Positions 1 through 49,567 of a stretch of DNA of 64,000 bases are shown piece after piece; the first letter of the stretch is position 1; the number at the start of each line of letters is the position of its first letter. Under the pieces are notes generated by a model. It was not told the origin of the DNA. It did no database searches and worked only from the letters and a program-made list of their open reading frames with translations. The position numbers were made by a program, and so were the translations under genes. The DNA comes from Labilibaculum euxinicum. Its GTDB lineage: Bacteria > Bacteroidota > Bacteroidia > Bacteroidales > Marinifilaceae. The DNA lies in NCBI RefSeq assembly GCF_009795715.1, contig NZ_WTCR01000007.1:1-64000 (forward strand), in the 5' to 3' direction.

Positions 1-1110
1 AAAATGGGAGAATTGTTACAATTGACCTTTTTCTCACAACAGCTAAAGCAGTTGGCAATACATCTATTCACAAAACCATAAAGCCACATGGCATTTAAAT
101 CAAATTTCACTCTTTGGACTCTTTGACTTTTCGACTTTTCAAGACTTTCGATCCCACACACCCCTCTCCCTGTCGGGATCTCCCCTCAAAATGGGAGAAT
201 TGTTACAATTGACCTTTTTCTCACAACAGCTAAAGCAGTTGGCAATACATGGCTTCACAAAACACCTATCTTCACAAACCATGCACTAAAGCCACATGGC
301 AACTAAATCAGATTTCACTTTTTGGACTCTTCGACTTTCAAGACACTTTTTCTCCAACGGCTAAATCCGAGAGATAACTCAATCCCATGCTTCTTTTTAC
401 ATTACATCTTGTGGCGCAGAATAATATCTTGTTTCAAAGAATTATTTTCACCTGCGCCAATTTGTAATGTCCCATTCTTATCCCGGGGTGGCATTCGCTT
501 CGCTCCTTTCCCCCGGGCTATTCATATTTGAGCCCTTCAGGCTCCGATAAAATGCAACTATTACTTTATCTATCTTACTCTTGTTGACCTTTTCACTTTT
601 GACCTTCGACTTTTCCAGACTTTTCATCTTCAGACAGCCCTCTCCCTGTCGGGATCTCTCCTGAAAATGGGAGAATTGTTACAATTGACCTTTTTCTCAC
701 AACAGCTAAAGCAGTTGGCAATACATCGATTCACAAAACACCTATCTTCACAAACCATGGACTAAAGCAACATGGCAACTAAATCAGATTTCACTCTTTG
801 GACTCTTCGACTTTTGGACTTTTCAAGACTCTTCCAGACATTTCATCTTCAGACAGCCCTCTCCCTGTCGGGATCTCTCCTGAAAATGGGAGAATTGTTA
901 CAATTGACCTTTTTCTCACAACAGCTAAAGCAGTTGGCAATACATCTATTCACAAAACCATAAAGCCACATGGCATTTAAATCAAATTTCACTCTTTGGA
1001 CTCTTTGACTTTTCGACTCTTCGACCTTTCGACTTTTGGACTTTTCCAGACTTTTCCAGACTTTTCCAGACTCTTCAAGACTTTTCCAGACTTTCACTGT
1101 ATCACAAAAA
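1..1110. repeat. Dispersed intergenic repeat block (left copy)
   Basis: This gene-free stretch is built from repeated modules. Unit A, about 90 bp, contains a short palindrome (TCTCC..GGGAGA) followed by a conserved tail ending in GGCAATACAT; copies lie at 1-63 (cut by the window), 161-250, 636-726 and 856-945. Between them are runs of degenerate 8-10 bp units of the type GACTTTTCCA, clearest at 1006-1102. Unit B (342-620) is described separately. Positions 1-136 and 883-1018 are identical. Short open frames here follow the repeats and are not credible genes. No transposase is present, so these look like non-autonomous palindromic repeats. Confidence 0.85.
342..620. repeat. Repeat unit B, copy 1
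   Basis: A roughly 280-bp module that recurs at about 6118-6404 and 6422-6712. It holds several short dyads: GGCGCAG pairing with CTGCGCC around 413-460, CCCGGG-type arms flanking a TTCGCTTCGC core near 482-515, and GAGCCC..GGCTC near 531-547. It ends in the GACTTTTC-type short repeats. The palindromic build is reminiscent of REP/MITE-type elements; that comparison is inference. Confidence 0.75.
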
Positions 1111-1153
1111 AGACCAACTCAATCGCGAGTCAGTCCATTTATGTTTAAAAAAA

Positions 1154-1497
1154 GGCAAACCTGTAAGCCGGGTCCTGTATTCTCCGAAAAGAATTTCTAT
1201 CATTTATCTAGAACATTTGTCACCAAATGTCTCGAGCAATCCACCCCCCGAACATCAGCCGAGTCAGCCTACATACGCCGGTGTACTTGATCTTGCAACA
1301 CATAAGGTACACAGCCACCAATGTCACCATTAGTGCTGGTGAGCTCTTACCTCACCTTTTCACCCTTACCCGAAGGCGGTTCTTTTCTGTTCTACTACTA
1401 AAGCCTTTCGACCTTCTTCCCGTTAGGAAGTATGTTACTCTATGTTGCCCGGACTTTCCTCTCCTTTTTACAAAGCAGCGATAGAACGGTTTGCCGG
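1154..1497 (-). ncRNA. rnpB: RNase P RNA (bacterial class A)
   Basis: The catalytic RNA of ribonuclease P, which removes 5' leaders from pre-tRNA. On the minus strand the RNA shows the universal 5' core GAGGAAAGTCCGGGC (about 1446-1462) and the 3' core ACCCGGCTTACAG (about 1161-1175). The terminal helix P1 is visible: GGCAAACC at the 5' end (1488-1495) pairs perfectly with GGTTTGCC at the 3' end (1154-1161). These fix the ends to within a few bases and give a length near 342 nt, normal for the family. The gene lies directly beside the repeat element at 1500-2175, which supplies its upstream region. Confidence 0.96.
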
Positions 1498-2186: not shown

Positions 2187-3374
2187 CTACAACTTTACAA
2201 TAAACGCATCGTCGTAACCTTTTTTGCGAATTTCCCGCAATTCCCGGCGACAAACCCAATAATTGTCGTAATTCCCATAAAAATAACGATACAACTCGTC
2301 CTGCGGATCAAATGTCCGTGTAAGATCTTTAATCGTTATCCGCTTAAGGTTCATTTCAGATTTACTTGCAAATACCTGAATGGTAAAATGAGCATCTGCA
2401 GAAAGACTTTCCTGAACAGCTGCTGACTTTAAACCTGATGGAGTTTTAATTTTTGCCTGAGTAAAACCAAGGTCTTTTAATTTTTGAACCGCCTCATTTG
2501 CTAGCTTTTTATCGTTATAGTCTCCTATTTCAATAATATAAAGCGGCTTTTCAGATATCTTTAAATGCCCTAATTCATAATAGTAATCAACATATTCTTT
2601 TCCTCTCATTTTTCGCCCCATATTATAGGATCCTGTCTGATTCGAAGCCATTTTTACATCGTTTTTCCTTTCTGCCTCTACTCTAACTGCCGCCAACTCT
2701 CCTTTATTAATAACGGCAACACTTGCATGAGGAAAACCTGCCATCACTTTTTCCTGCAAATATTTCTTAGCATCACCCACATCCTCAAATCGCCCCAACA
2801 CATATTGAAACATTCCATCCGCCTCCAGTACTTTCACTGAGTTGAACGGAGAAAAACTTTCTGCATTTAGACTGTTTTTGCTTTTCTGAAGAAGAATGGT
2901 GTAGTAATAATCATTACCAATATTAGTCAGTTTACCAATTGCAGTTTCAGCATCCTGATTCTTTTTAGCGGTTTGACTGGTGATTTTCTGCGTCTGAGTT
3001 TTATCCTGACCACCCTTTCTATTCGTAAGAACTGCTGAAATCTGCTCCGACGTGAACTCCTGATTTAAATCCAAAACCTTGGCATCGGCATATCCAAAAG
3101 ACTTTATTTCTTCCACCCGAGTCTCGGCTTCACTCTTAGAATTGCTTAGACCGGATAAATAATGATACTCTCCATCTTTTCCACTCAACTCAACAACATC
3201 ATTCAATTCTTCGAAATAATCGGTATATACCGGATATTTAAACTTTGCAATTTCTACACCGTAGGTTGAACCTCCCGCTGTAGAGCCGGCAAAGTTAATA
3301 TCGAAAAAAGAAGAAAAGGAACCAATTGTCCCGGCGGTCAAGAAAAAACAGATTAAAAAGTAGATATTCCTCAT
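2187..3374 (-). CDS. Secreted protein with repeated SPOR-like domains
   Basis: A 395-residue exported protein with an N-terminal signal peptide (hydrophobic segment about residues 4-20). The rest can be read as about four SPOR-like units, each with a Y/F-hydrophobic strand, a run such as 'ANEAVQKLKDLGF' and a following strand, around residues 50-105, 155-230, 270-320 and 325-395. SPOR domains bind denuded peptidoglycan, so a periplasmic cell-wall role is likely. It lies downstream, on the same strand, of the OmpA/PD40 gene at 3937-5823, although 560 bp separate them. The middle (about residues 105-150) is low-complexity and rich in K, Q and T. Domain calls are by eye and the function is inferred. 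Confidence 0.65.
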   Translation of the reverse strand: MRNIYFLICFFLTAGTIGSFSSFFDINFAGSTAGGSTYGVEIAKFKYPVYTDYFEELNDVVELSGKDGEYHYLSGLSNSKSEAETRVEEIKSFGYADAKVLDLNQEFTSEQISAVLTNRKGGQDKTQTQKITSQTAKKNQDAETAIGKLTNIGNDYYYTILLQKSKNSLNAESFSPFNSVKVLEADGMFQYVLGRFEDVGDAKKYLQEKVMAGFPHASVAVINKGELAAVRVEAERKNDVKMASNQTGSYNMGRKMRGKEYVDYYYELGHLKISEKPLYIIEIGDYNDKKLANEAVQKLKDLGFTQAKIKTPSGLKSAAVQESLSADAHFTIQVFASKSEMNLKRITIKDLTRTFDPQDELYRYFYGNYDNYWVCRRELREIRKKGYDDAFIVKL

Positions 3375-40491: not shown

Positions 40492-40521
40492 ATTAATTGA
40501 TTGTGTAATATCGAATTAAAC

Positions 40522-40598
40522 ATGAAACGTACATGATTAAATAATTATTAACTCATACATGAGCATGATTATTTAATCAAGGTAAGTTCCATCTGACA
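40522..40598 (+). promoter_or_regulatory. 77-bp palindromic leader element, copy 1
   Basis: This element is 69/77 identical to 46498-46574. An 11-bp outer dyad GATTAAATAAT (40535-40545) pairs with its complement (40568-40578), enclosing an inner dyad CTCAT / ATGAG (40552-40556 and 40559-40563). Its end is 23 bp before the batE start. It could be a hairpin in the leader, a regulator-binding site, or a small mobile palindrome. Confidence 0.8.
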
Positions 40599-40620
40599 AT
40601 TGCATAAAAATTATAAACAG

Positions 40621-41370
40621 ATGAAAAAAGCATTACAATTTATACTCGCCATATTTATCAGCACTCAAACATGGGCTCAAGTTAACCCAATTGCTGAGGC
40701 CAATGAGATGTATAAAAAAGGAGAATACGAGAAAGCAATTCAAGCTTACGAATTTGTTTTAGATACTCATTTAGAAGCACCGGAAATTTATTTTAATCTG
40801 GGAAATGCTTACTACAAAACAGGAGAAATCTCTTCTTCCATTTTAAACTATGAGCGTGCCTTACTATTCTCTCCTAACGACAAAGATATTCAGTACAATT
40901 TAGACTTAGCCCGTAAACATGTTTTGGATAAGTTTGATGTTTTGCCCGAAATATTTATAAAAAGATGGTTTTCTGGAATTCGAAATAGTTTTTCGGCTGA
41001 TATATGGTCTTACTTTTCAATTCTATTTTTCTTACTGACGCTTACTTTTGCCTGTTTTTATCTGTACAGCAACAAATCGGGACTAAAAAAGTTGGGTTTT
41101 TTCTTCGCTTTTTTTGCCTTTGGCATTTCAATCATGACTTATTCTTTTGCATCAAAAAAAACAGATGAAATCAATATTCGCGAGCATGCAATTATTGTTA
41201 GCCCTAGTGTTACTATTAAAGGTTCTCCGGATAAAAGCGGTACCGAATTGTTCTTACTGCACGAAGGCACAAAAGTTAAAGTGATTGGTGAACTGCAGGA
41301 TTGGCGAAACATTCTTCTTAGCGATGGCAATGAAGGTTGGCTGAAAAAAGAAGACATTGAAATGATATAA
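40621..41370 (+). CDS. batE: BatE, TPR and SH3-like domain protein
   Basis: A 249-residue protein with signal peptide (about 1-19, ending TWAQ), TPRs (about 25-95), two membrane helices (about 122-145 and 153-170) and a C-terminal SH3b-like domain (about 180-249; LHEGTKVKVIGELQDWRNI). This is the standard BatE arrangement. The start is the ATG at 40621; the open frame extends seven codons upstream only to a TTG. It lies 130 bp after batD with the repeated leader element between, so it may be separately controlled. Confidence 0.9.
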   Translation: MKKALQFILAIFISTQTWAQVNPIAEANEMYKKGEYEKAIQAYEFVLDTHLEAPEIYFNLGNAYYKTGEISSSILNYERALLFSPNDKDIQYNLDLARKHVLDKFDVLPEIFIKRWFSGIRNSFSADIWSYFSILFFLLTLTFACFYLYSNKSGLKKLGFFFAFFAFGISIMTYSFASKKTDEINIREHAIIVSPSVTIKGSPDKSGTELFLLHEGTKVKVIGELQDWRNILLSDGNEGWLKKEDIEMI

Positions 41371-41385
41371 TTAACTCAATAACGT

Positions 41386-41415
41386 AAAAGGATTTCGGCT
41401 TCGAAATCCTTTTTA
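41386..41415 (+). terminator. Terminator of the Bat operon
   Basis: A stem AAAAGGATTTCG / CGAAATCCTTTT with a four-base loop and trailing Ts, 15 bp after the batE stop. Confidence 0.85.
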
Positions 41416-41444
41416 TTCATACAACAAGCTTATTAAACAGCAAT

Positions 41445-42323
41445 ATGAAATACAGCATACAAAACGAATTCTTCCAAATTGAGGTTCTTGAAAAAGGAGC
41501 TGAACTTTGCAGTATTAAATCGAGACTTACCAATCAGGAATTTATATGGCAAGCCGATCCTGAAATTTGGGGAAGCCATGCTCCCAACCTATTCCCGGTA
41601 ATTGGCTGTTTAAAAGATGATGGATTTATTCATGAAGGCAAAGAATATGCAATGCCCAAACATGGATTTATTCGCAACAATAAAGATATTCAATTGCACA
41701 GCAAATCAGAGAATGAGCTTTGTTTTGTATTAAAATCAAATGAAAACACGCGCAAACTTTATCCTTTCAAGTTTGAATTCTACATTCATTATATATTGGA
41801 TGGTAAGAAATTACATGTAAAACATGATGTTGTAAACACAGGCTCGAAGGATATGCTTTTCTGTCTGGGAGGACATCCCGCTTTTGCATGTCCGTTAAAG
41901 GAAGGTGAAAAGTACTCCGATTATTATCTGGAATTTGAGCAAAAAGAAACTGCACACACCTGGATGATTGTTGACAATGGACTTATTGGCCAGGAAGGAA
42001 AATTGATTTTAGATGAAAATGATCGAATTGAACTTGCACCAGATCTTTTCGCAAAGGATGCTCTGATTTTTAAAAATCTAAAATCCTCCTTTGTGAAATT
42101 AAGGAGTAAGAATTCAAATTTCTCCTTAAAAGTCAGCCTTGATGATTTCCCATATCTTGGACTTTGGGCCAAACCAAATGCACCCTATGTTTGCATTGAA
42201 CCATGGATTGGAATCGCTGACAGCTATGATTCGAGCCGGGAATTTTCTGAAAAAGAAATCATTCAATCTCTTGATTCGGGCCAAACATTTAGTGCTGCAT
42301 ATTCGATAGAAATCACAGAATAA
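41445..42323 (+). CDS. Aldose 1-epimerase family protein
   Basis: A 292-residue protein of the galactose mutarotase-like fold. PKHGFIRN (about 67-74) holds a likely active-site His, GGHPAFACP (about 145-153) a second, and a late EPWIG carries the catalytic Glu. It belongs to the 'LacX/aldose epimerase' subgroup rather than to GalM proper, acting on anomers of a hexose or hexose phosphate. It is alone between two terminators. Confidence 0.88.
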   Translation: MKYSIQNEFFQIEVLEKGAELCSIKSRLTNQEFIWQADPEIWGSHAPNLFPVIGCLKDDGFIHEGKEYAMPKHGFIRNNKDIQLHSKSENELCFVLKSNENTRKLYPFKFEFYIHYILDGKKLHVKHDVVNTGSKDMLFCLGGHPAFACPLKEGEKYSDYYLEFEQKETAHTWMIVDNGLIGQEGKLILDENDRIELAPDLFAKDALIFKNLKSSFVKLRSKNSNFSLKVSLDDFPYLGLWAKPNAPYVCIEPWIGIADSYDSSREFSEKEIIQSLDSGQTFSAAYSIEITE

Positions 42324-42329
42324 AACAGA

Positions 42330-42352
42330 AGAGCCCAAAGGCTCTTTTTTTA
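42330..42352 (+). terminator. Intrinsic terminator after the epimerase gene
   Basis: A six-base stem AGAGCC / GGCTCT with an AAA-type loop and a run of Ts. Confidence 0.85.
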
Positions 42353-42422
42353 TCTCCAATCAAAATTAAAGACAAACACATCTTTTTTTTGCTTTTCAGA
42401 AGCAATTCTTCATCCGAAAAGT

Positions 42423-42430
42423 TAAATTTG
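42423..42430 (+). promoter_or_regulatory. -7 promoter box before the PLP-enzyme pair
   Basis: TAAATTTG is a perfect TAnnTTTG match about 94 bp upstream of the start at 42524. No known riboswitch consensus is recognised in the leader. Confidence 0.45.
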
Positions 42431-42523
42431 TAATAAGCTTTAAATTTTCTGCTGCAACCACAGTAAAAACGAGCAAGTTAATTTGAATAAAAAGCTGATA
42501 ATTATTTAATCAATTTTTCGAGA

Positions 42524-43669
42524 ATGCATATTGAAACTTTACTTGCTCATTTGGCTGAGGAAGGTGGCGTATACGATCCATATGGAGCGTCGCACCTGCC
42601 CATTTATCAAACAGCTACCTTTGATCTGAAAAAACAATCGGGATCTAAAATATACGATTATACCCGCTCCGATAACCCAACCAGAGATGCTTTGGAAACG
42701 GTTTTTGCCAAGGCTGAAAATGGTGCATCTTGTTCGTGCACTCATACCGGAATTGGAGCAATTGCCTTGCTTTTCGAAACTGTATTAAAAGCAAACAGTA
42801 AAATTTTGGTTGAAAAAGATTGTTATGGCGGCACTTACCGACTTTTACAAGTGTATAAAGACAAATACAATGTAGAAGTTTTCTTTGCTGATTTTACTGA
42901 TCTTTTGGAAATTCAAAACTTATTGGAAACCGACAACTTTGATTTAGTTCTTTGTGAATCTCCCACCAATCCGGGAATGAAAATTATTGATTTAAGAGAA
43001 TTGGTAATGCTTGCCAAAAACAATGGAAGCAAATTTGCCGTTGATAACAGTCTCGCTACATTTGCATCTCAGAAACCGCTTGATTTGGGAGCTGATTTTT
43101 CTGTTTTCAGCGCTACAAAGTACATTTCAGGACATGGAAGTACTGTGGCTGGTGCATTGGTCTCTAAATGGGAGGAAGATGGCGAAAAGGTTGCCTATTT
43201 TGCCAATGCCGAAGGTCGTTCCCAAAATCCCTTTGATGTATTTTTAATTTCACTGGGAATACCTACTCTCCCCTTACGACTCAAGCATCATGAACAAAGT
43301 GCAATTCAGGTTGCTGAATATTTGGAGAAACACCCAAAAGTGAATAAGCTGGTGTATCCAGGTTCCAAAAATCATCCGCAACATGAGTTGGCAAAATCTC
43401 AAATGAAAATTTTCCCCGGCGTACTCACTGTTCACATGCAGAATGTCGAAACGGCTGAAAAATTGGTAGCAGCCACTCGCTGGTTTGGAGAAAAAGCCTC
43501 GTTCGGAACTGCTGATTCACGAATTGAAATTCCCGCTAAAATTAGTCACGCGTCCTTTTCTAAAGAGGATCTGCAAGCGATTGGAATCTTCCCATCTACG
43601 GTTCGATTGTCCATCGGACTGGAACACATCGATGATCTGCTTGAAGATTTAGAAAACGCGCTTAAATAA
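42524..43669 (+). CDS. PLP-dependent trans-sulfuration enzyme (cystathionine gamma-synthase/lyase or methionine gamma-lyase type)
   Basis: A 381-residue enzyme of the Cys/Met metabolism PLP family. The cofactor lysine is in SATKYISGHG (about residues 201-210), with YGGTYRL, CESPTNPG (about 146-153) and a C-terminal RLSIGLEH that contacts substrate carboxylate. Alternatives within the family (CGS, CBL, CGL, MGL) are not separable here. It is followed after four bases by a second, divergent member, so the two form an operon. Confidence 0.88.
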   Translation: MHIETLLAHLAEEGGVYDPYGASHLPIYQTATFDLKKQSGSKIYDYTRSDNPTRDALETVFAKAENGASCSCTHTGIGAIALLFETVLKANSKILVEKDCYGGTYRLLQVYKDKYNVEVFFADFTDLLEIQNLLETDNFDLVLCESPTNPGMKIIDLRELVMLAKNNGSKFAVDNSLATFASQKPLDLGADFSVFSATKYISGHGSTVAGALVSKWEEDGEKVAYFANAEGRSQNPFDVFLISLGIPTLPLRLKHHEQSAIQVAEYLEKHPKVNKLVYPGSKNHPQHELAKSQMKIFPGVLTVHMQNVETAEKLVAATRWFGEKASFGTADSRIEIPAKISHASFSKEDLQAIGIFPSTVRLSIGLEHIDDLLEDLENALK

Positions 43670-43673
43670 TTTA

Positions 43674-45191
43674 ATGGAAAAATGCATGGTTAAAACCCCA
43701 TACCGAAACATAACTTGCGGAAAATCGATTCCACCGCACAATGTTCACGCTATTTCTGTTAGTCTTCCAACTATTCAGGATGTATATTCCTATGAAGAAA
43801 ATAAGAATAACTGGCGGAATTGCATGGAAACAGGCTATCCCCGCTTTTTCTGTCATCCTTACGAAAAAAAGGTTATTGAATATTTTAAGGCTCATTTTTC
43901 AATTAGCGAAGAGAAACATCTCTTCCTGTTTCCATCAAAATCCTCCTGTCAACTTGTAAGTAGTTTTTTTGAACTTAATTTCAAAGAATATGAATTAAAC
44001 GGAATCTTCACCATTTCTGTTGATTCGCAAAATCCTGCTCTCAAAAAAGCATGCGACTTTATTCAGCATACCGGACACAAAGTTTTTTCGAGACAATTAG
44101 AGGATTTCTTACTCAAGCTAAAACTCATAAACAATCCCCATCAAGAGGAAATGCTTTCTACTAATCCGGAACAGCACGTTAAACAAGAACTCCAAAAACA
44201 GTTCCTGCTAGATAAGAATCAAAATATTGAACTATTTTCGAGTGGAATGAATGCGATATATTCTCTTTTTGAGGGCATTAATCAAATTCAAAAGCTAAAA
44301 AAAGCCATTGTTTTTATTCAATATGGTTGGTTATACACCGATACCATAGATATTTTGAGAAAGTACAGTGAATCTTATTTGGAGCTAATCTCTGTTTATG
44401 ACGAGAAAGAATTACTATTGGTAATTGAAGCTAACAAAGAGAAAATTGCCGCAGTATTTACCGAAATTCCAACCAATCCTTTTCTTCATACTCCTAATTT
44501 GCCTTTTCTATATTCGCATTTAAGCAAGCTCGATATCCCATTAATTGTGGATGGAACCATTGGAACATGCGTGAATATGAATTATCTGCCTTATTGTGAT
44601 TTTGCGGTGGAAAGCCTCACAAAATTTGCATCTGGAATGGCTGATGTTATGGCTGGTTGTATTGTTCCAAATCCTAATTCGAACTGGACAAAGAACAATT
44701 TGGTTGATTTAAAACCCTACCAACAAGAATTATACAGAAGAGATTTGGAAAGAATTGCATTTCAAATTTCAGGTATGGAATCGAGAGTTAAATCCATTCG
44801 AAAAAATGCATTCGAATTGGCTCTTTTTTTCGAATCCCATCCTGCAGTAAAAACCGTTAATTGGTCGCACAATAAAAAAAACACAGCAAACTATTCGAAA
44901 ATTGAGAAAGAGGAAAACAACTATGCCGGATTAATTTCTATTGAATTTAATGGCTCCATTGAAAAATTTTATAATGCTCTTGAACTTCCCAAAGGTCCAA
45001 GTCTTGGCACAGAATTCACATTGGTAATGCCTTATTTTTATTTGGCTCATTACGATTTGATTAAGACCAAAGAAGGACGAAAACTACTTGCCGAAAAGGG
45101 AATCAACTGGGAATTGGTTCGGATATCAGTCGGCACTGAGCCAATCGAAGAATTAATCAGCATTTTCGAAAAAGCCTTGAATCAAATCTAA
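43674..45191 (+). CDS. Divergent PLP-dependent enzyme of the cystathionine gamma-synthase fold
   Basis: A 505-residue PLP enzyme whose C-terminal 350 residues match the Cys/Met metabolism family: SSGMNAIYS near 190, EIPTNPFLHTPN near 265, the probable cofactor lysine in ESLTKFASG near 318, and VRISVGTEP at the end. The first roughly 150 residues hold an additional segment. It is probably the partner of the preceding enzyme, either a heteromeric subunit or the second trans-sulfuration step. The catalytic lysine is retained, so it is unlikely to be dead. Confidence 0.78.
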   Translation: MEKCMVKTPYRNITCGKSIPPHNVHAISVSLPTIQDVYSYEENKNNWRNCMETGYPRFFCHPYEKKVIEYFKAHFSISEEKHLFLFPSKSSCQLVSSFFELNFKEYELNGIFTISVDSQNPALKKACDFIQHTGHKVFSRQLEDFLLKLKLINNPHQEEMLSTNPEQHVKQELQKQFLLDKNQNIELFSSGMNAIYSLFEGINQIQKLKKAIVFIQYGWLYTDTIDILRKYSESYLELISVYDEKELLLVIEANKEKIAAVFTEIPTNPFLHTPNLPFLYSHLSKLDIPLIVDGTIGTCVNMNYLPYCDFAVESLTKFASGMADVMAGCIVPNPNSNWTKNNLVDLKPYQQELYRRDLERIAFQISGMESRVKSIRKNAFELALFFESHPAVKTVNWSHNKKNTANYSKIEKEENNYAGLISIEFNGSIEKFYNALELPKGPSLGTEFTLVMPYFYLAHYDLIKTKEGRKLLAEKGINWELVRISVGTEPIEELISIFEKALNQI

Positions 45192-45218
45192 AGAACTCCG
45201 AATCTCATTCGGAGTTCT
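45192..45218. terminator. Bidirectional intrinsic terminator
   Basis: A 12-base stem AGAACTCCGAAT / ATTCGGAGTTCT with a three-base loop and T/A-rich flanks, placed between the convergent PLP-enzyme and Old Yellow Enzyme genes. Confidence 0.85.
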
Positions 45219-45230
45219 TAATTTTAAAAT

Positions 45231-46313
45231 CTATGAAAGAGCCGGATAGTCGGTATATCCAACTTCATTACCTCCATAAAAAGTTTCTTTATTAGCTGCA
45301 TTCAATTCAGCTCCTTGTTCAAATCGTTTTTCTAAATCAGGATTGGCTAAATAGGGTACTCCGAAAGAAACCAATTCTGCTTTTTTAGAAGCAATAACTT
45401 TATGACCTGTCTCTTTCGTAAATCCTCCATTCACCATTCGAACGCCTTTGTACTGTTTTCCGTAATAATCAACCACATCCTTTATCAATTGAGGGTGATC
45501 ATCAAGAGGCATCAATGGTTCAATCAAATGCAAATAAGAAAGATCATATGCATTCAATTTATCAATCACATAATTAAAAATTGATGTTGGATCCGAATCT
45601 CCCATATCATTAAACAAACCACTGGGCGAAAGACGAATACCTACCGATGAAGAATCCCAAACCTGCAGTGTTGCGTCTAAAACTTCAAACAAAAAACGAG
45701 CTCGATTCTCTACTGTTCCACCATATTTATCGGTTCGATGATTTGTTTTATCTTCTAAAAACTGATCGATTAAGTAACCATTTGCTGCATGAATTTCAAC
45801 GCCGTCAAAACCTGCATCCTTCGCATGTTTCGCTGCTTTTTTATAATCTTCCACAATGGCTGCAATCTCCTCTGTTTCCAAAGCTCTGGGAGTCACAAAA
45901 TCTTTTAATCCTTCATAAGTAAATGCTTGTCCTGCAGGACGAACAGCAGAAGGTGATACCGGCAATTCTCCATTGTGAAAATCGGGATGCGAAATCCGCC
46001 CAACATGCCATAGTTGAATAAATATCTTCCCGCCTTTATCATGAACAGCTTTTGTAATTTGTTTCCAACCATCAACCTGTTCTTTACTATAAATCCCAGG
46101 CGTTGCCGGATAACCCATTCCCTGAGGTGATATTTGACTCGCCTCTGATATGATTAAACCTGCTCCTGCTCTTTGTTTGTAGTACTCTGCCATCAATTTT
46201 GTCGGAATATTTCCTTCTCCGGCTCTGTTTCTGGTCATTGGAGCCATTACCATTCTATTTCCCAATTCGATTTTACCAATCGCAAAAGGAGTCAATAATG
46301 TATTTTTATTCAT
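45231..46313 (-). CDS. Alkene reductase, Old Yellow Enzyme family
   Basis: A 360-residue FMN-dependent ene-reductase with a TIM barrel. Family blocks visible are MVMAPMTRNRA near the N-terminus, IQLWHVGRISHP, GFDGVEIHAANGYLIDQFL (about 170-188) with the His-Ala-Asn substrate motif, and MVNGGFTKETG near the C-terminus. It reduces activated C=C bonds or nitro compounds with NAD(P)H. Probably NemA-like. It is monocistronic. Confidence 0.94.
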   Translation of the reverse strand: MNKNTLLTPFAIGKIELGNRMVMAPMTRNRAGEGNIPTKLMAEYYKQRAGAGLIISEASQISPQGMGYPATPGIYSKEQVDGWKQITKAVHDKGGKIFIQLWHVGRISHPDFHNGELPVSPSAVRPAGQAFTYEGLKDFVTPRALETEEIAAIVEDYKKAAKHAKDAGFDGVEIHAANGYLIDQFLEDKTNHRTDKYGGTVENRARFLFEVLDATLQVWDSSSVGIRLSPSGLFNDMGDSDPTSIFNYVIDKLNAYDLSYLHLIEPLMPLDDHPQLIKDVVDYYGKQYKGVRMVNGGFTKETGHKVIASKKAELVSFGVPYLANPDLEKRFEQGAELNAANKETFYGGNEVGYTDYPALS

Positions 46314-46497
46314 CTTCTTTTTCGTTATTTTTATTTAATCAAGATATAAATAAGATTCTGATTTCTAAAAAAAGAAATATTAGAGATAAGTATAAATGAA
46401 TTTATAGTTGCTATTTATTATTGAGCAAGAAAACAATCAAGTTGAATTTCTATTGATCTCAAGATTGGTTTGTATCTTCGCTAAAAATTTGAAAAGA

Positions 46498-46574
46498 ATG
46501 AAACGTCTGTGATTTAATAATTATTAACTCATACATGAGCATGATTGTTTAATCAAGATAAATTCCTTCTGACA
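46498..46574 (+). promoter_or_regulatory. 77-bp palindromic leader element, copy 2
   Basis: The partner of 40522-40598. The inner dyad CTCAT / ATGAG and most of the outer dyad are unchanged; eight substitutions separate the copies, and one in the outer dyad (A to G) would give a G-T pair. It ends 22 bp before the U32-family start, nearly the same spacing as at batE. A TATCTTCG at 46473-46480, one base off the -7 box, is just upstream. Confidence 0.8.
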
Positions 46575-46595
46575 TCTTTAAACAATTTCAGACAC

Positions 46596-48416
46596 ATGAA
46601 ACAAATAGAACTATTAGCTCCAGCCAAAAATCTGGAAACAGGAATGGCTGCCATTAATTACGGAGCTGATGCTATATATATTGGTGCACCTAAATTTGGT
46701 GCCCGATCAGCCGCAGGAAATACTCTCGAAGATATTGGGGAGTTGATTAAATATGCTCATAAATACTGGGCGAAAGTATTCATCACGATGAATACGATTC
46801 TATATGACCATGAATTAAAAGAAGCTGAAGAGCTGATTCATCAACTTTATAAACTTGGGGCTGATGCTCTGATTGTTCAGGATATGGGAGTTCTGGAAAT
46901 GAATCTTCCTCCTATCGAACTTCATGCCAGCACCCAAACTCATAATTACGATCTCGATCGGATTAAATTTTTGGAACAAGTAGGATTTAAACGAATTATT
47001 CTTGCCCGGGAGCTTTCTCTGGATCAGATTAAAGAAATAAGAAAAAACACCACGGCAGAGCTTGAATATTTTATTCACGGCGCATTATGTGTTTCACTTA
47101 GTGGGCAGTGCTATTTCTCTCATGCTGTTGGCGGACGCTCTGCAAATCGCGGAGAATGCAGTCAGGCTTGCCGGATGAAATACGATTTAGTTGACGGAGA
47201 AGGAAAAGTAATTGCGAAAGACAAGCACCTGCTCTCTTTAAAAGACCTGAATCTATCCGGTCATATGAAAGAATTGGTGGAAAGCGGCATTTGCTCTCTG
47301 AAAATTGAGGGACGTTTAAAAGACAGTTCCTATCTAAAGAATGTTACAAACTATTACAGAAAAGAATTAGATGATGTTTTTACAAAGAAAAAAGAATTTG
47401 AAAAAGCATCGTCAGGGACAGTTAAACCAAACTTTGAACCGGATTTAGAGAGAACTTTTAACCGCGGTTTCACCAACTATTTTTTTACAGGTAGAATTCC
47501 CGAAATCGCAAATTTCCACACGCCAAAATCATTAGGAAAAGAAATTGGTAAGATTGTTGACATCCGAAAAGATCATTTTATAATTGATACCAAATTTGAA
47601 ATTCACAATGGTGATGGTCTTTGCTTTTTTAATCACAATAAGCTGTTAAAAGGAATTCTGGTGAATGGAGTAAAAGGGAAACAGGTTTTCCCAAATGATA
47701 TGAGCATGCTGGTTAAAGGTGCTGTTTTGTATCGTAATAACGATCACGAATTTGCCAAAACGCTTAAAAGAGACAACTCTATCAGAAGAATTTCAGCGGA
47801 TCTTTTTCTGGAATTTAAAGAAAATATTCTGACCTTATTTGCTGCAGATGAAGACGGCATTAGTGCTTCGGTTCAACTTAAGGAAAAGTTTGAATTGGCC
47901 CGCAATGCTGAAATGGCAATTACTAATCTTAAAAATCAATTATCAAAATCGGGAGATTCAATCTACTCGATCAATTCCATTGAAACCAACTTTACTAAAG
48001 CACCCTTTGTTCAGGCCAAAGTGCTGAATGAGCTGCGCCGACAGGTTCTTGATTCTTTAACTGAAAATCGGCTTAATGCATTTCAACAGCCCAAAACGAA
48101 AGCGCTAATCTCGCATCCCCAATATCATACAAAAAACCTGAATTATATGGGTAATGTAGTCAATTGTAAGGCCGAAGAGTTTTATCACAAGTGTGGGGTC
48201 GAAAAAATCGAAAAAGGTTTTGAACTACAATCCAATTTCAAAGGGAAAACAATCATGACCACAAAGCATTGTTTGCGTCATGAATTTGGTATGTGCAACA
48301 AGGAGGTTAGTACCGGACAAAAAACAAATCAACCATTGTATCTTGTTGATAATAAAAATCGTTACAAACTTGAATTTCAGTGCCAGCGATGCGAAATGAA
48401 AATCATTTTTGAATAG
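46596..48416 (+). CDS. Peptidase U32 family protein (RlhA/TrhP-like)
   Basis: A 606-residue U32 protein. The signature EYFIHGALCVSLSGQC (about 158-173) and a further GRSANRGECSQACR give a cysteine group, and the C-terminal CLRHEFGMCN and CQRCEMK give more cysteines. E. coli relatives RlhA and TrhP hydroxylate 23S rRNA C2501 and tRNA U34; the cysteines likely bind iron-sulfur. The start is set at ATG 46596 where the conserved MKQIELLAPA begins; the frame is open upstream through the repeated leader element. An RNA hydroxylase role is inferred from the family. Confidence 0.9.
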   Translation: MKQIELLAPAKNLETGMAAINYGADAIYIGAPKFGARSAAGNTLEDIGELIKYAHKYWAKVFITMNTILYDHELKEAEELIHQLYKLGADALIVQDMGVLEMNLPPIELHASTQTHNYDLDRIKFLEQVGFKRIILARELSLDQIKEIRKNTTAELEYFIHGALCVSLSGQCYFSHAVGGRSANRGECSQACRMKYDLVDGEGKVIAKDKHLLSLKDLNLSGHMKELVESGICSLKIEGRLKDSSYLKNVTNYYRKELDDVFTKKKEFEKASSGTVKPNFEPDLERTFNRGFTNYFFTGRIPEIANFHTPKSLGKEIGKIVDIRKDHFIIDTKFEIHNGDGLCFFNHNKLLKGILVNGVKGKQVFPNDMSMLVKGAVLYRNNDHEFAKTLKRDNSIRRISADLFLEFKENILTLFAADEDGISASVQLKEKFELARNAEMAITNLKNQLSKSGDSIYSINSIETNFTKAPFVQAKVLNELRRQVLDSLTENRLNAFQQPKTKALISHPQYHTKNLNYMGNVVNCKAEEFYHKCGVEKIEKGFELQSNFKGKTIMTTKHCLRHEFGMCNKEVSTGQKTNQPLYLVDNKNRYKLEFQCQRCEMKIIFE

Positions 48417-49103: not shown

Positions 49104-49190
49104 AACACGTCAGTCAAAGACTATTTAGTTCCATCGACTTGATTATGTGTGGATTTGTACAATTAGAACATAAAAAAAAAGCACAAAAAA

Positions 49191-49361
49191 ACCGCACTAA
49201 TTAATAGGATTTTAAACTCCTAAATGACAGGATTTGAGTGCCAGCCTGATCAAGTATCCCCTGTGCCGAAACAACCCGAAGGTTGGGGCCCGCTTTAGCA
49301 AGCATGTAGCTTTCTCGGTATCTTATAAATGTTGAGTTTAACAATCGATAATTAATGCGGT
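49191..49361 (+). ncRNA. ssrS: 6S RNA (RNA polymerase regulator)
   Basis: A 171-nt RNA that fits 6S RNA, which binds the RNA polymerase holoenzyme by imitating an open promoter. CCCCTGTGCCGA (about 49258-49269) resembles the 5' side of the E. coli 6S central region (CCCCUGAGCCGA), and AGCAAGCATG..CTCGGT resembles the opposite strand. The fold is supported: the closing stem pairs ACCGCACTAATTA at 49191 with its near-complement ending at 49361, an inner stem pairs TAAACTC with GAGTTTA, and a small hairpin CAACCC-GAA-GGTTG is at the apex. It lies between the AlbA_2 gene and tatD-like gene. The ends are set from pairing. Confidence 0.8.
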
Positions 49362-49567
49362 ATGCTATTATCTTATTTCCAAAGAACGTTCTCTTATTAC
49401 TTGCAAGCTAATGAAGAATCTCTGCTTTTGCAAGGCTTACGGTGTATTTTTTATACAAAATTAAACAAATTCACATTTCCAATTACTCAATGCACAAGTT
49501 ATTAAAACGTTATACAGTCAAGACCACCTGCTTAAATCACGAAATTTGGATCAATCAGCAATATTTG

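Follow-up and report, generated by a model that had tools for sequence, protein, structure and literature searches.

Mobile elements usually limit damage by intergenic landing or by the use of fixed attachment sites. IS200/IS605 elements recognise a short target of fixed sequence and insert on its 3' side without duplicating it, carry an internal guide and a subterminal hairpin, and show a lagging-strand-template bias. Among small dispersed repeats, the portions of PMC3733652 used here plot REPs near gene 3' ends in two species and describe families bearing GTAG or CGTC tags. The BrickBuilt MITE of Porphyromonas gingivalis is placed at 49-591 nt from coding sequences and has terminal inverted repeats (TIRs) in the passages drawn from PMC4596501, while the terms 'start codon' and 'initiation codon' are absent from the main text of a review of prokaryotic MITEs (PMC10969869). 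IS605-type stem-loops dispersed without a transposase are described for Borrelia plasmids (excerpts of PMC2775950), and direct repeats of the heptamer TAACTGA upstream of start codons for Beggiatoaceae, Cyanobacteria and five Bacteroidetes (excerpts of PMC4679880). No description of a start-codon-inserting element was found in titles and abstract openings, with much subscription literature beyond the reach of this survey.

The window analysed was a stretch of 64,000 nt from Labilibaculum euxinicum (contig NZ_WTCR01000007.1). Direct comparison of 40522-40598 with 46498-46574 showed 69 of 77 identical positions in the same orientation, as an earlier note on this DNA had reported, and a whole-genome search with 40500-40610 retrieved the second copy at E 2.8e-23. 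The resemblance of the two copies is far above chance level. The inner CTCAT/ATGAG dyad was identical in both copies and the outer dyad was present, also as previously described. However, the true repeat unit was longer than the 77 bp first given, at 104 and 103 bp, and reached into the start codons (Table 1). The distance from the end of the 77-bp match to the ATG was 22 bp for batE, within the 22-23 bp stated before, but 21 bp for the U32 gene. The U32 copy seems shorter because its final ~25 bp look like the tail of a different subtype, which by eye stands in tandem at the U32 site in a congener (L159). The name 'batE' depends on reading the preceding ORFs as bat-like.

Table 1. Positions of the two element copies, their parts and the genes that follow them in the window.
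Feature	Position	Strand	Description
Element copy 1	40522..40625 (104 bp)	+	Left ATGAA to right ATGAA holding the batE start codon; covariance model 105.3 bits, E 1.0e-15
Left ATGAA, copy 1	40522..40526	+	Putative former start-codon site, judged from empty sites at other genes; TGA now at codon 5
Hairpin H1, copy 1	40526..40588	+	RNA MFE -24.3 kcal/mol, z -4.8; covariation of the stem seen outside the genus
Stem P2, copy 1	40590..40623	+	CATCTG (40590-40595) with CAGATG (40618-40623); 3' strand includes the batE start codon
batE-like TPR/SH3 protein	40621..41370	+	249 aa counted from the element's ATG
Element copy 2	46498..46600 (103 bp)	+	Terminates in the U32 start codon; 80 bits; fold z -1.9
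Copy 2 tail	46568-46572 / 46588-46592	+	P2 replaced by TCTGA / TCAGA, like the other subtype's tail
Peptidase U32 family protein	46596..48416	+	606 aa; U32 + DUF3656

A covariance-model search, of the kind proposed in the earlier note, gave 99 matches in the genome (150 of 4538 candidates were scored and the E-values are rough). Excluding tandems, 67 of 89 matches had their end precisely at the ATG of an ORF at least 60 aa long and were oriented along the gene, 10 had such an ATG at the match end or within 70 nt and 12 were without such an ORF, a class that may be undercounted because the covariance models include the ATGAA columns and favour two-ended copies. In the class of 10, one copy was at the exact place with ATGCA, one was 64 nt off and one 6 nt off, while the remaining copies were cut at a hairpin insert. 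Indifferent use of non-coding ATGAA would place 91/427 (21%) at starts, with 91 start and 336 non-start pentamers in the congener G007, the only genome used for this background, which depends on simple ORF calls made for the analysis (binomial p 2e-27 for 67/89). The first query, which stopped 10 bases short of the start codon and was thus blind to it, found 28 distinct copies, with 23 located where a long ORF begins, 2 in tandem and 3 neither. Among the 13 youngest copies, defined by an identity of 95% or more to a copy elsewhere, 11 were located at a start and the other 2 in tandem onto one at a start, and 3 of 22 copies with 90-95% identity were not at starts; location labels in this ranking were set by hand and one copy differs from its census label, with the 13 youngest unaffected. 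A T was favoured at -1 of the insertion site (55/85 copies against 31/91 in the background) after removal of 14 of the 99 copies with a tandem-like upstream tail. Copies were thus many, as a passive repeat was expected to be in the earlier note, but their position and orientation were far from random. That the window holds two recently copied palindromes without a wider family, for which the 69/77 match and nothing further speaks, is refuted by the 99 matches and the presence in other genera and families, and its probability is close to nil.

Overall, the copies of this genome lie between left and right start sites and are high-copy, short, hairpin-forming and mostly extragenic. They probably belong to a family of non-autonomous miniature mobile elements, mostly 80-120 bp, that targets start codons and would be moved in trans. 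A search for an autonomous copy with the left-end pattern TGAAACGNNCATG found none among 44 of its 45 exact matches, which all lie within copies already found, the remaining match being at C32:153435.

Comparison with congeners showed filled and empty sites. The hdrA-like gene reads SD-GCCTCGTT-ATGAAAAAG when empty and ATGAA-[element]-ATGAA-AAAG when filled, which would make the left ATGAA the former start codon and the right ATGAA its replacement. Its orthologues were filled in 4 of 5 cases and empty in one, while close orthologues of ispD were filled in 5 of 8 and empty in 3, a count that omits the distant paralogues L183 and L184 (55-60% identity, without the element), L171, L172 and L174 from distant organisms and the incomplete match L243. 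The nucleotidyltransferase gene was empty in four genomes, and G000 and G002 carry two different subtypes there; one copy in G002 has a right-hand ATGCA in place of ATGAA. Tandem copies share the junction ATGAA and some tandems mix subtypes, with at least four near-identical tandem units at G003:C2:341025-341409. These patterns suggest that the filled/empty difference reflects insertion and not loss, and that tandems come from re-insertion. The earlier suggestion of a mobile palindrome settled in promoters comes close in its mobile part, given the 99 matches, presence and absence between congeners and precise empty sites, but the site is the start codon and not the promoter.

The predicted single-strand fold, made up of the hairpin H1 and the stem P2, which encloses the new start codon, is conserved. 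In an alignment of 67 of the 99 own copies with 11 others, from which exact duplicates and copies that bear the TCCCGAA-type insert or lack a terminal ATGAA had been removed, the variable pair of P2 was AU in 33, CG in 28, GC in 9, GU in 1, unpaired in 5 and a gap in 2. Outside the genus, the alignment held 46 of 48 listed loci (L074, L195, L065 and L083 are absent from the list) and had 64 cells changed on both sides, a number reached by none of 500 shuffles, for structures that were named from the same sequences and are favoured by this. Two of five covariation measures were not above the shuffles there (pairs changed on both sides, 334/500; further pair types, 69/500), and two H1 pairs fail in 24/46 and 21/46 of the sequences. 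RNAalifold by itself yielded P2 alone. Between the stems, the majority sequence ACACACAAGGnAATGATTAT was shared with sequences outside the genus. TTCCAT(NTG) and the fixed ATGAA were present, and by inspection pairing of TTCCAT is possible with each of the two ATGAA ends when one bulge is allowed. No Rfam match was found over the window elements at the gathering threshold or in 8 loci at E up to 1. One weak Rfam match, to V_AS7, was located outside the element.

A start codon within a covarying stem, the common ACACACAAGGnAATGATTAT and the strict position and orientation are what a cis-acting translational leader would show, riboswitch-like or protein-bound, kept at chosen genes with a fold that toggles access to the start and spread by rare transfer and selection. 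The genes downstream were unrelated, however, as the earlier note had said of its two: 104 Pfam families were found among 77 downstream proteins and no family had more than 4 members (77 of 78 listed proteins were scanned, the longer duplicate being left out, cut at 400 aa). Congener orthologues lack the element or carry another subtype, copies decay internally at one and the same site as in ispD, several near-identical copies occur per genome and tandem units are repeated as at G003. Such a leader is therefore improbable. A regulon leader for batE and U32, joining aerotolerance and RNA hydroxylation as the earlier note had offered, does not stand, with no functional coherence among the genes and copies polymorphic between congeners. 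A conserved leader peptide was also rejected because the ORF beginning ATGAAACGTCCATGC..., readable as ~30 aa in some copies, hits a stop at codon 5 in many.

Of 58 copies tested for the gene upstream, 26 had one on the same strand no more than 50 nt away, against 23 of 87 ordinary ATGAA genes, and these copies probably sit inside operons. Promoter-proximal insertion was unsupported given this proportion.

The ATGAA on both sides resembles a target duplication, as would be left by a DDE-type DNA miniature transposon with a 5-bp duplication whose survivors are found mainly at start codons because the duplication is harmless there. Operon junctions, with four -4 overlaps with the upstream gene among the operon-tested copies, agree with such harmlessness. 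However, the element has no classical terminal inverted repeats, its orientation is fixed and the non-start ATGAA (336 against 91), which should be equally harmless, are little used, by 12/89 copies without an ORF and by none of the 13 youngest. A DDE transposon thus seems quite unlikely.

Under the preferred start-codon-targeting family, the element would enter the sense strand directly 3' of an ATGAA pentamer serving as translation start and would bring or regenerate its own ...CANATGAA at the 3' end, so that the gene would retain an intact start and second codon. An overlapping upstream stop codon (ATGA) would likewise be preserved. Movement would occur in trans, through an enzyme that works on the element folded as a single strand. 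The old start codon would become a short upstream ORF and the A/T-rich tail of the element a new ribosome-binding region, with a probably mild effect on expression of the host gene. The preference for starts may also arise by selection after insertion.

As a mobiliser, an HUH/Y1 transposase (REP- or IS200/IS605-like) is the likeliest candidate, although we hold it only tentatively. PF01797 (Y1 transposase) had 7 matches in the own genome. Y1 genes were present in 16/16 bearing genomes tested (from 29 known besides the own) and in 1/10 element-free genomes, a co-occurrence confounded by the mostly larger size of the bearing genomes. Only 1 of 47 stretches (L258) had a significant copy no more than 300 bp from the Y1 gene; these stretches comprised 40 of 70 matches in the tested genomes and the 7 own; the L282 stretch had a sub-threshold copy (E 0.62). 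No shared ends were seen at Y1 gene flanks, and by eye the own-genome Y1 genes sit among other repeats. Replication direction agreed with the element at 54 of 73 sites against a rough gene background of ~0.56 from 20 windows (p 0.002), and a bias of 0.95, a yardstick set by us, was rejected (p 2e-9). A strict lagging-strand insertion target does not agree with these 54/73 sites.

Ranking next as a means of movement is insertion at the RNA level, in which element RNA would join an mRNA at an unstructured A-rich start, guided by TTCCAT and ATGAA, and be copied back to DNA. The sense orientation at starts, the use of operon-internal starts no less than by ordinary ATGAA genes (26/58 against 23/87), the ability of TTCCAT to pair with both ATGAA ends with one bulge and the modest replication strand bias are consistent with this route, but the preference for T at -1 (55/85 against 31/91) is equally compatible with DNA targeting. 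We know of no precedent for it with a 95-nt element and consider it unlikely.

The family is not limited to this genome. Elements built in this way, with stems that covary and one of them around the new start codon, occurred in at least 14 of 395 sampled Bacteroidota genomes (own included), and the element was present in other genera and families. The alternative in the earlier note of only two copies by recent copying thus fell away. One element copy used as query gave no match in plasmid records and none in phage records, and a single exact-pattern scan of viral contigs yielded one stretch, in which a shortened copy lay at an ORF start.

Like REP/REPIN-RAYT systems, the element is small, folded, high-copy, non-autonomous and dispersed and Y1 genes accompany it in the bearing genomes tested, but it is ~95 nt long with a different fold and occupies start codons, not the flanks of Y1 genes. 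The own genome's commonest subtype has CGTC near its left end (within ACGTCC) and GTAAG at a more internal position, but neither is kept outside the genus. Unlike in IS608, one guide seems to serve both element ends. It resembles MITEs in being non-coding, mobile and short and may similarly affect neighbouring expression; unlike BrickBuilt and classical MITEs, it sits on the start codon without classical TIRs, its ends being direct ATGAA repeats with the inverted parts internal. The TAACTGA repeats share the forward orientation, most commonly end 1 nt before the start codon and show no gene-function pattern, but are plain 7-nt tandems without the fold and do not contain the start codon; ATGAA targeting and empty sites are not seen for them in those passages (PMC4679880). 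The Borrelia stem-loops are likewise free-standing and gene-linked with structure kept by compensatory changes, but are linked to lipoprotein gene 3' ends and derive from recognisable IS605 ends, and start-codon insertion is not seen in the passages concerned (PMC2775950).

It is conceivable, though we judge it short of probable, that a phylum-wide selfish class recognises the start codon as such, via mRNA or a gene-start DNA state, inserts in the sense strand and gives a new start in its own hairpin. Such a class would be self-concealing because operon after operon could be loaded without breaking genes. The element seems to insert at the start codon itself and to restore it, at a handful to ~100 genes per bearing genome, operon-internal ones included. 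In a single step, many host genes would thereby acquire an upstream mini-ORF and a different 5' leader in which a hairpin covers the start codon, and start-codon annotation in Bacteroidota would be affected. Filled and empty sites offer natural before/after pairs for how 5' leaders set translation. Finally, finding the mobiliser would yield an enzyme or RNA system that is specific for start codons.

Comparison of the two window segments confirmed the 69/77 identity in the same orientation claimed by the earlier note, and the dyads described inside both segments were present. The 77 bp held as the length of the match and not as the full length of the repeated unit, since an alignment of genome copies showed a longer repeat. 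The whole-genome search, with window positions 40500-40610 as a query that stops 10 bases short of the batE start codon, produced many further copies in the own genome. The aligned copies had ATGAAACG at the left end and CATATGAA, CAGATGAA or CACATGAA at the right end, and in most of them the right-end ATG served as start codon for the gene that follows. Among 28 distinct search copies, 23 were located where a long ORF begins, 2 were in tandem and 3 fell in neither class.

A covariance model built from 25 copies was searched against the own genome (cut-off E ≤0.1) and produced at least 99 matches among the best 150 of 4538 candidates; further copies may exist. Another copy directly followed 10 of the 99 matches. 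The 89 non-tandem matches comprised 67 that ended exactly on an ATG opening an ORF of ≥60 aa, 10 with such an ATG at or ≤70 nt from the match end (most of these matches being cut at a hairpin insert) and 12 without one at or near the end. ATGAA pentamers in 400 kb sampled from the complete genome of a congener were found at 91 gene starts and 336 other non-coding positions, thus 21% at starts would be expected under indifferent non-coding landing. The window held 14 at gene starts and 36 at other non-coding positions, 2 of which were the left ends of the elements. Copies ≥95% identical to one elsewhere (n = 13) were at starts in 11 cases and in tandem onto one at a start in 2; 3/22 copies with 90-95% identity to another were away from starts. 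This start bias of the most similar copies is compatible with targeting of starts; selection may also account for the start-codon bias.

Filled and empty sites were found among the congeners (genomes G000, G002, G004, G005, G007 and G008). At an hdrA-like gene, the empty site in G004 was TTTAAGGAGGGCCTCGTT-ATGAAAAAGAAA, and the filled site in G000, G002, G007 and G008 had the element between TTTAAGGAGGGCATCGTT-ATGAA on the left and ATGAAAAAGAAA on the right. The left ATG was taken as the former start because the old Shine-Dalgarno-like sequence now precedes it. For ispD, 5 of 8 close orthologues were filled and 3 empty, with two different subtypes in tandem in G002. A nucleotidyltransferase gene was empty in G004, G005, G007 and G008 and held different subtypes in G000 and G002; G004 carried another copy at a second gene. 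At the U32 site, the element was matched in the extracted loci L156, L157, L159 (two copies), L160 and L173 and weakly in L158 (E 0.047), with no match in L161, seven Marinifilum loci and two Ancylomarina loci. The batE site carried it in the own genome, L156, L157, L159 and L173, with a degenerate match in L158 and absence from L160 and L161. At four insertion sites the start shares a 4-nt overlap with the stop codon of the gene upstream, and both genes were intact at each. From these sequences we infer whether a given site would have gained or lost the element.

The proposed search of relatives showed matches in 17/40 near relatives and, in a phylum-wide draw, in at least 14/395 genomes (best 10 candidates scored per genome), own genome included in both. 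Fuller searches in six bearing genomes of the draw produced 61, 29, 19, 17, 12 and 9 matches. The best-scoring 28 near-relative loci included 25 opening an ORF of ≥118 aa in the printed frame and 2 in tandem; the remaining locus had come out reversed and opened an ORF of ≥100 aa once turned. An ORF of ≥60 aa was opened by 22 of 27 phylum-draw loci and not by the other 5. A shortened copy was also found at an ORF start on a viral contig.

Coordinates of the element copies and other features
Feature	Sequence	Position	Strand	Remark
Element copy 1	window	40522-40625		batE start
Element copy 2	window	46498-46600		U32 gene start
RNase P RNA	window	1148-1497	minus	above Rfam gathering score
6S-like Bacteroidales-1 RNA	window	49184-49362	minus	above Rfam gathering score
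Copy with hairpin insert	L097	801-917		own genome
Copy with hairpin insert	L108	801-886		own genome
Shortened viral copy	L298 (IMGVR_UViG_3300010430_006947)	2971-3010		ORF start
Copy and partial second copy	L258 (G233)	2051-2180	opposite to Y1 gene	just downstream of Y1 gene
Weak match to Vibrio antisense RNA V_AS7	L031 (Labilibaculum genome)	385-553		62.7 bits (cut-off 90)

The stem of the left hairpin, H1, begins directly after the left ATGAA, and the stem P2 (CATNTG paired with CANATG) encloses the new start codon; the majority sequence linking them was ACACACAAGGnAATGATTAT. Across 78 sequences, the variable pair of P2 was AU in 33, CG in 28, GC in 9 and GU in a single one; it was left unpaired in 5 sequences and had a gap in 2. 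Together, H1 and P2 showed 64 cells changed on both sides in a set of 46 sequences from outside the genus, compared to a mean of 21.8 in shuffles that ignore relatedness, and pairing decreased from 85.9% in register to 18-40% when slid. Two of five covariation measures were not above the 500 shuffles in this set; 334/500 shuffles were as high for pairs changed on both sides and 69/500 for further pair types. H1, which was defined by hand from the sequences, was paired in only 73.9% of cells, with two positions often mismatched (G-A in 20/46, A-G in 16/46), and RNAalifold alone returned P2 as the sole structure. Seven copies folded singly produced z-scores of -4.8 (copy 1), -3.1 (locus L003), -1.9 (copy 2) and -1.4 to 0.2 (others), and the predicted folds of copy 1 and L003 stand out. 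In own-genome copies of several subtypes, a single fixed position between H1 and P2 was occupied by a hairpin of one of two types, TCCCGAAAGCTTTCGGGA or TCCCGAAACAAGTTCGGGACAGGC. The ispD copy had an insert in G007 (L178) and none in G008, and together these observations suggest that a second REP-like repeat may land in the element.

HUH/Y1 transposase genes were found in 16/16 element-bearing genomes tested versus 1/10 element-free genomes of the same family (Fisher p = 3e-6), a comparison in which the element-bearing genomes were mostly larger. This co-occurrence is consistent with mobilisation in trans, acting on a folded single strand. Only 1 of 47 Y1 stretches had a significant element copy ≤300 bp from the Y1 gene. 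The copies at L258 were not located at an obvious gene start and were the sole physical link to a possible mobiliser. By eye, each Y1 gene at the own-genome loci L149, L150, L151, L153 and L154 was among its own, different short hairpin repeats. REPs (PMC3733652), MITEs (PMC4596501), IS605 stem-loops (PMC2775950) and TAACTGA repeats (PMC4679880) each share one or two traits with the element; start-codon insertion and renewal are not described for them in the available portions of these papers. The element was filed with small non-autonomous mobile elements and kept outside the REP/RAYT family because flanking of a Y1 gene did not hold when tested.

A lagging-strand rule for insertion was not supported (54/73 sites co-directional). 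In the complete genome of G007, sites were commoner towards the terminus, with 13, 14, 19 and 27 of 73 in successive quartiles from the origin. Promoter proximity does not explain the start bias, since element-bearing starts were operon-internal at least as often (26/58) as ordinary ATGAA starts (23/87). The remaining candidate explanations are recognition of the start region itself, either in DNA or in RNA, and selection.
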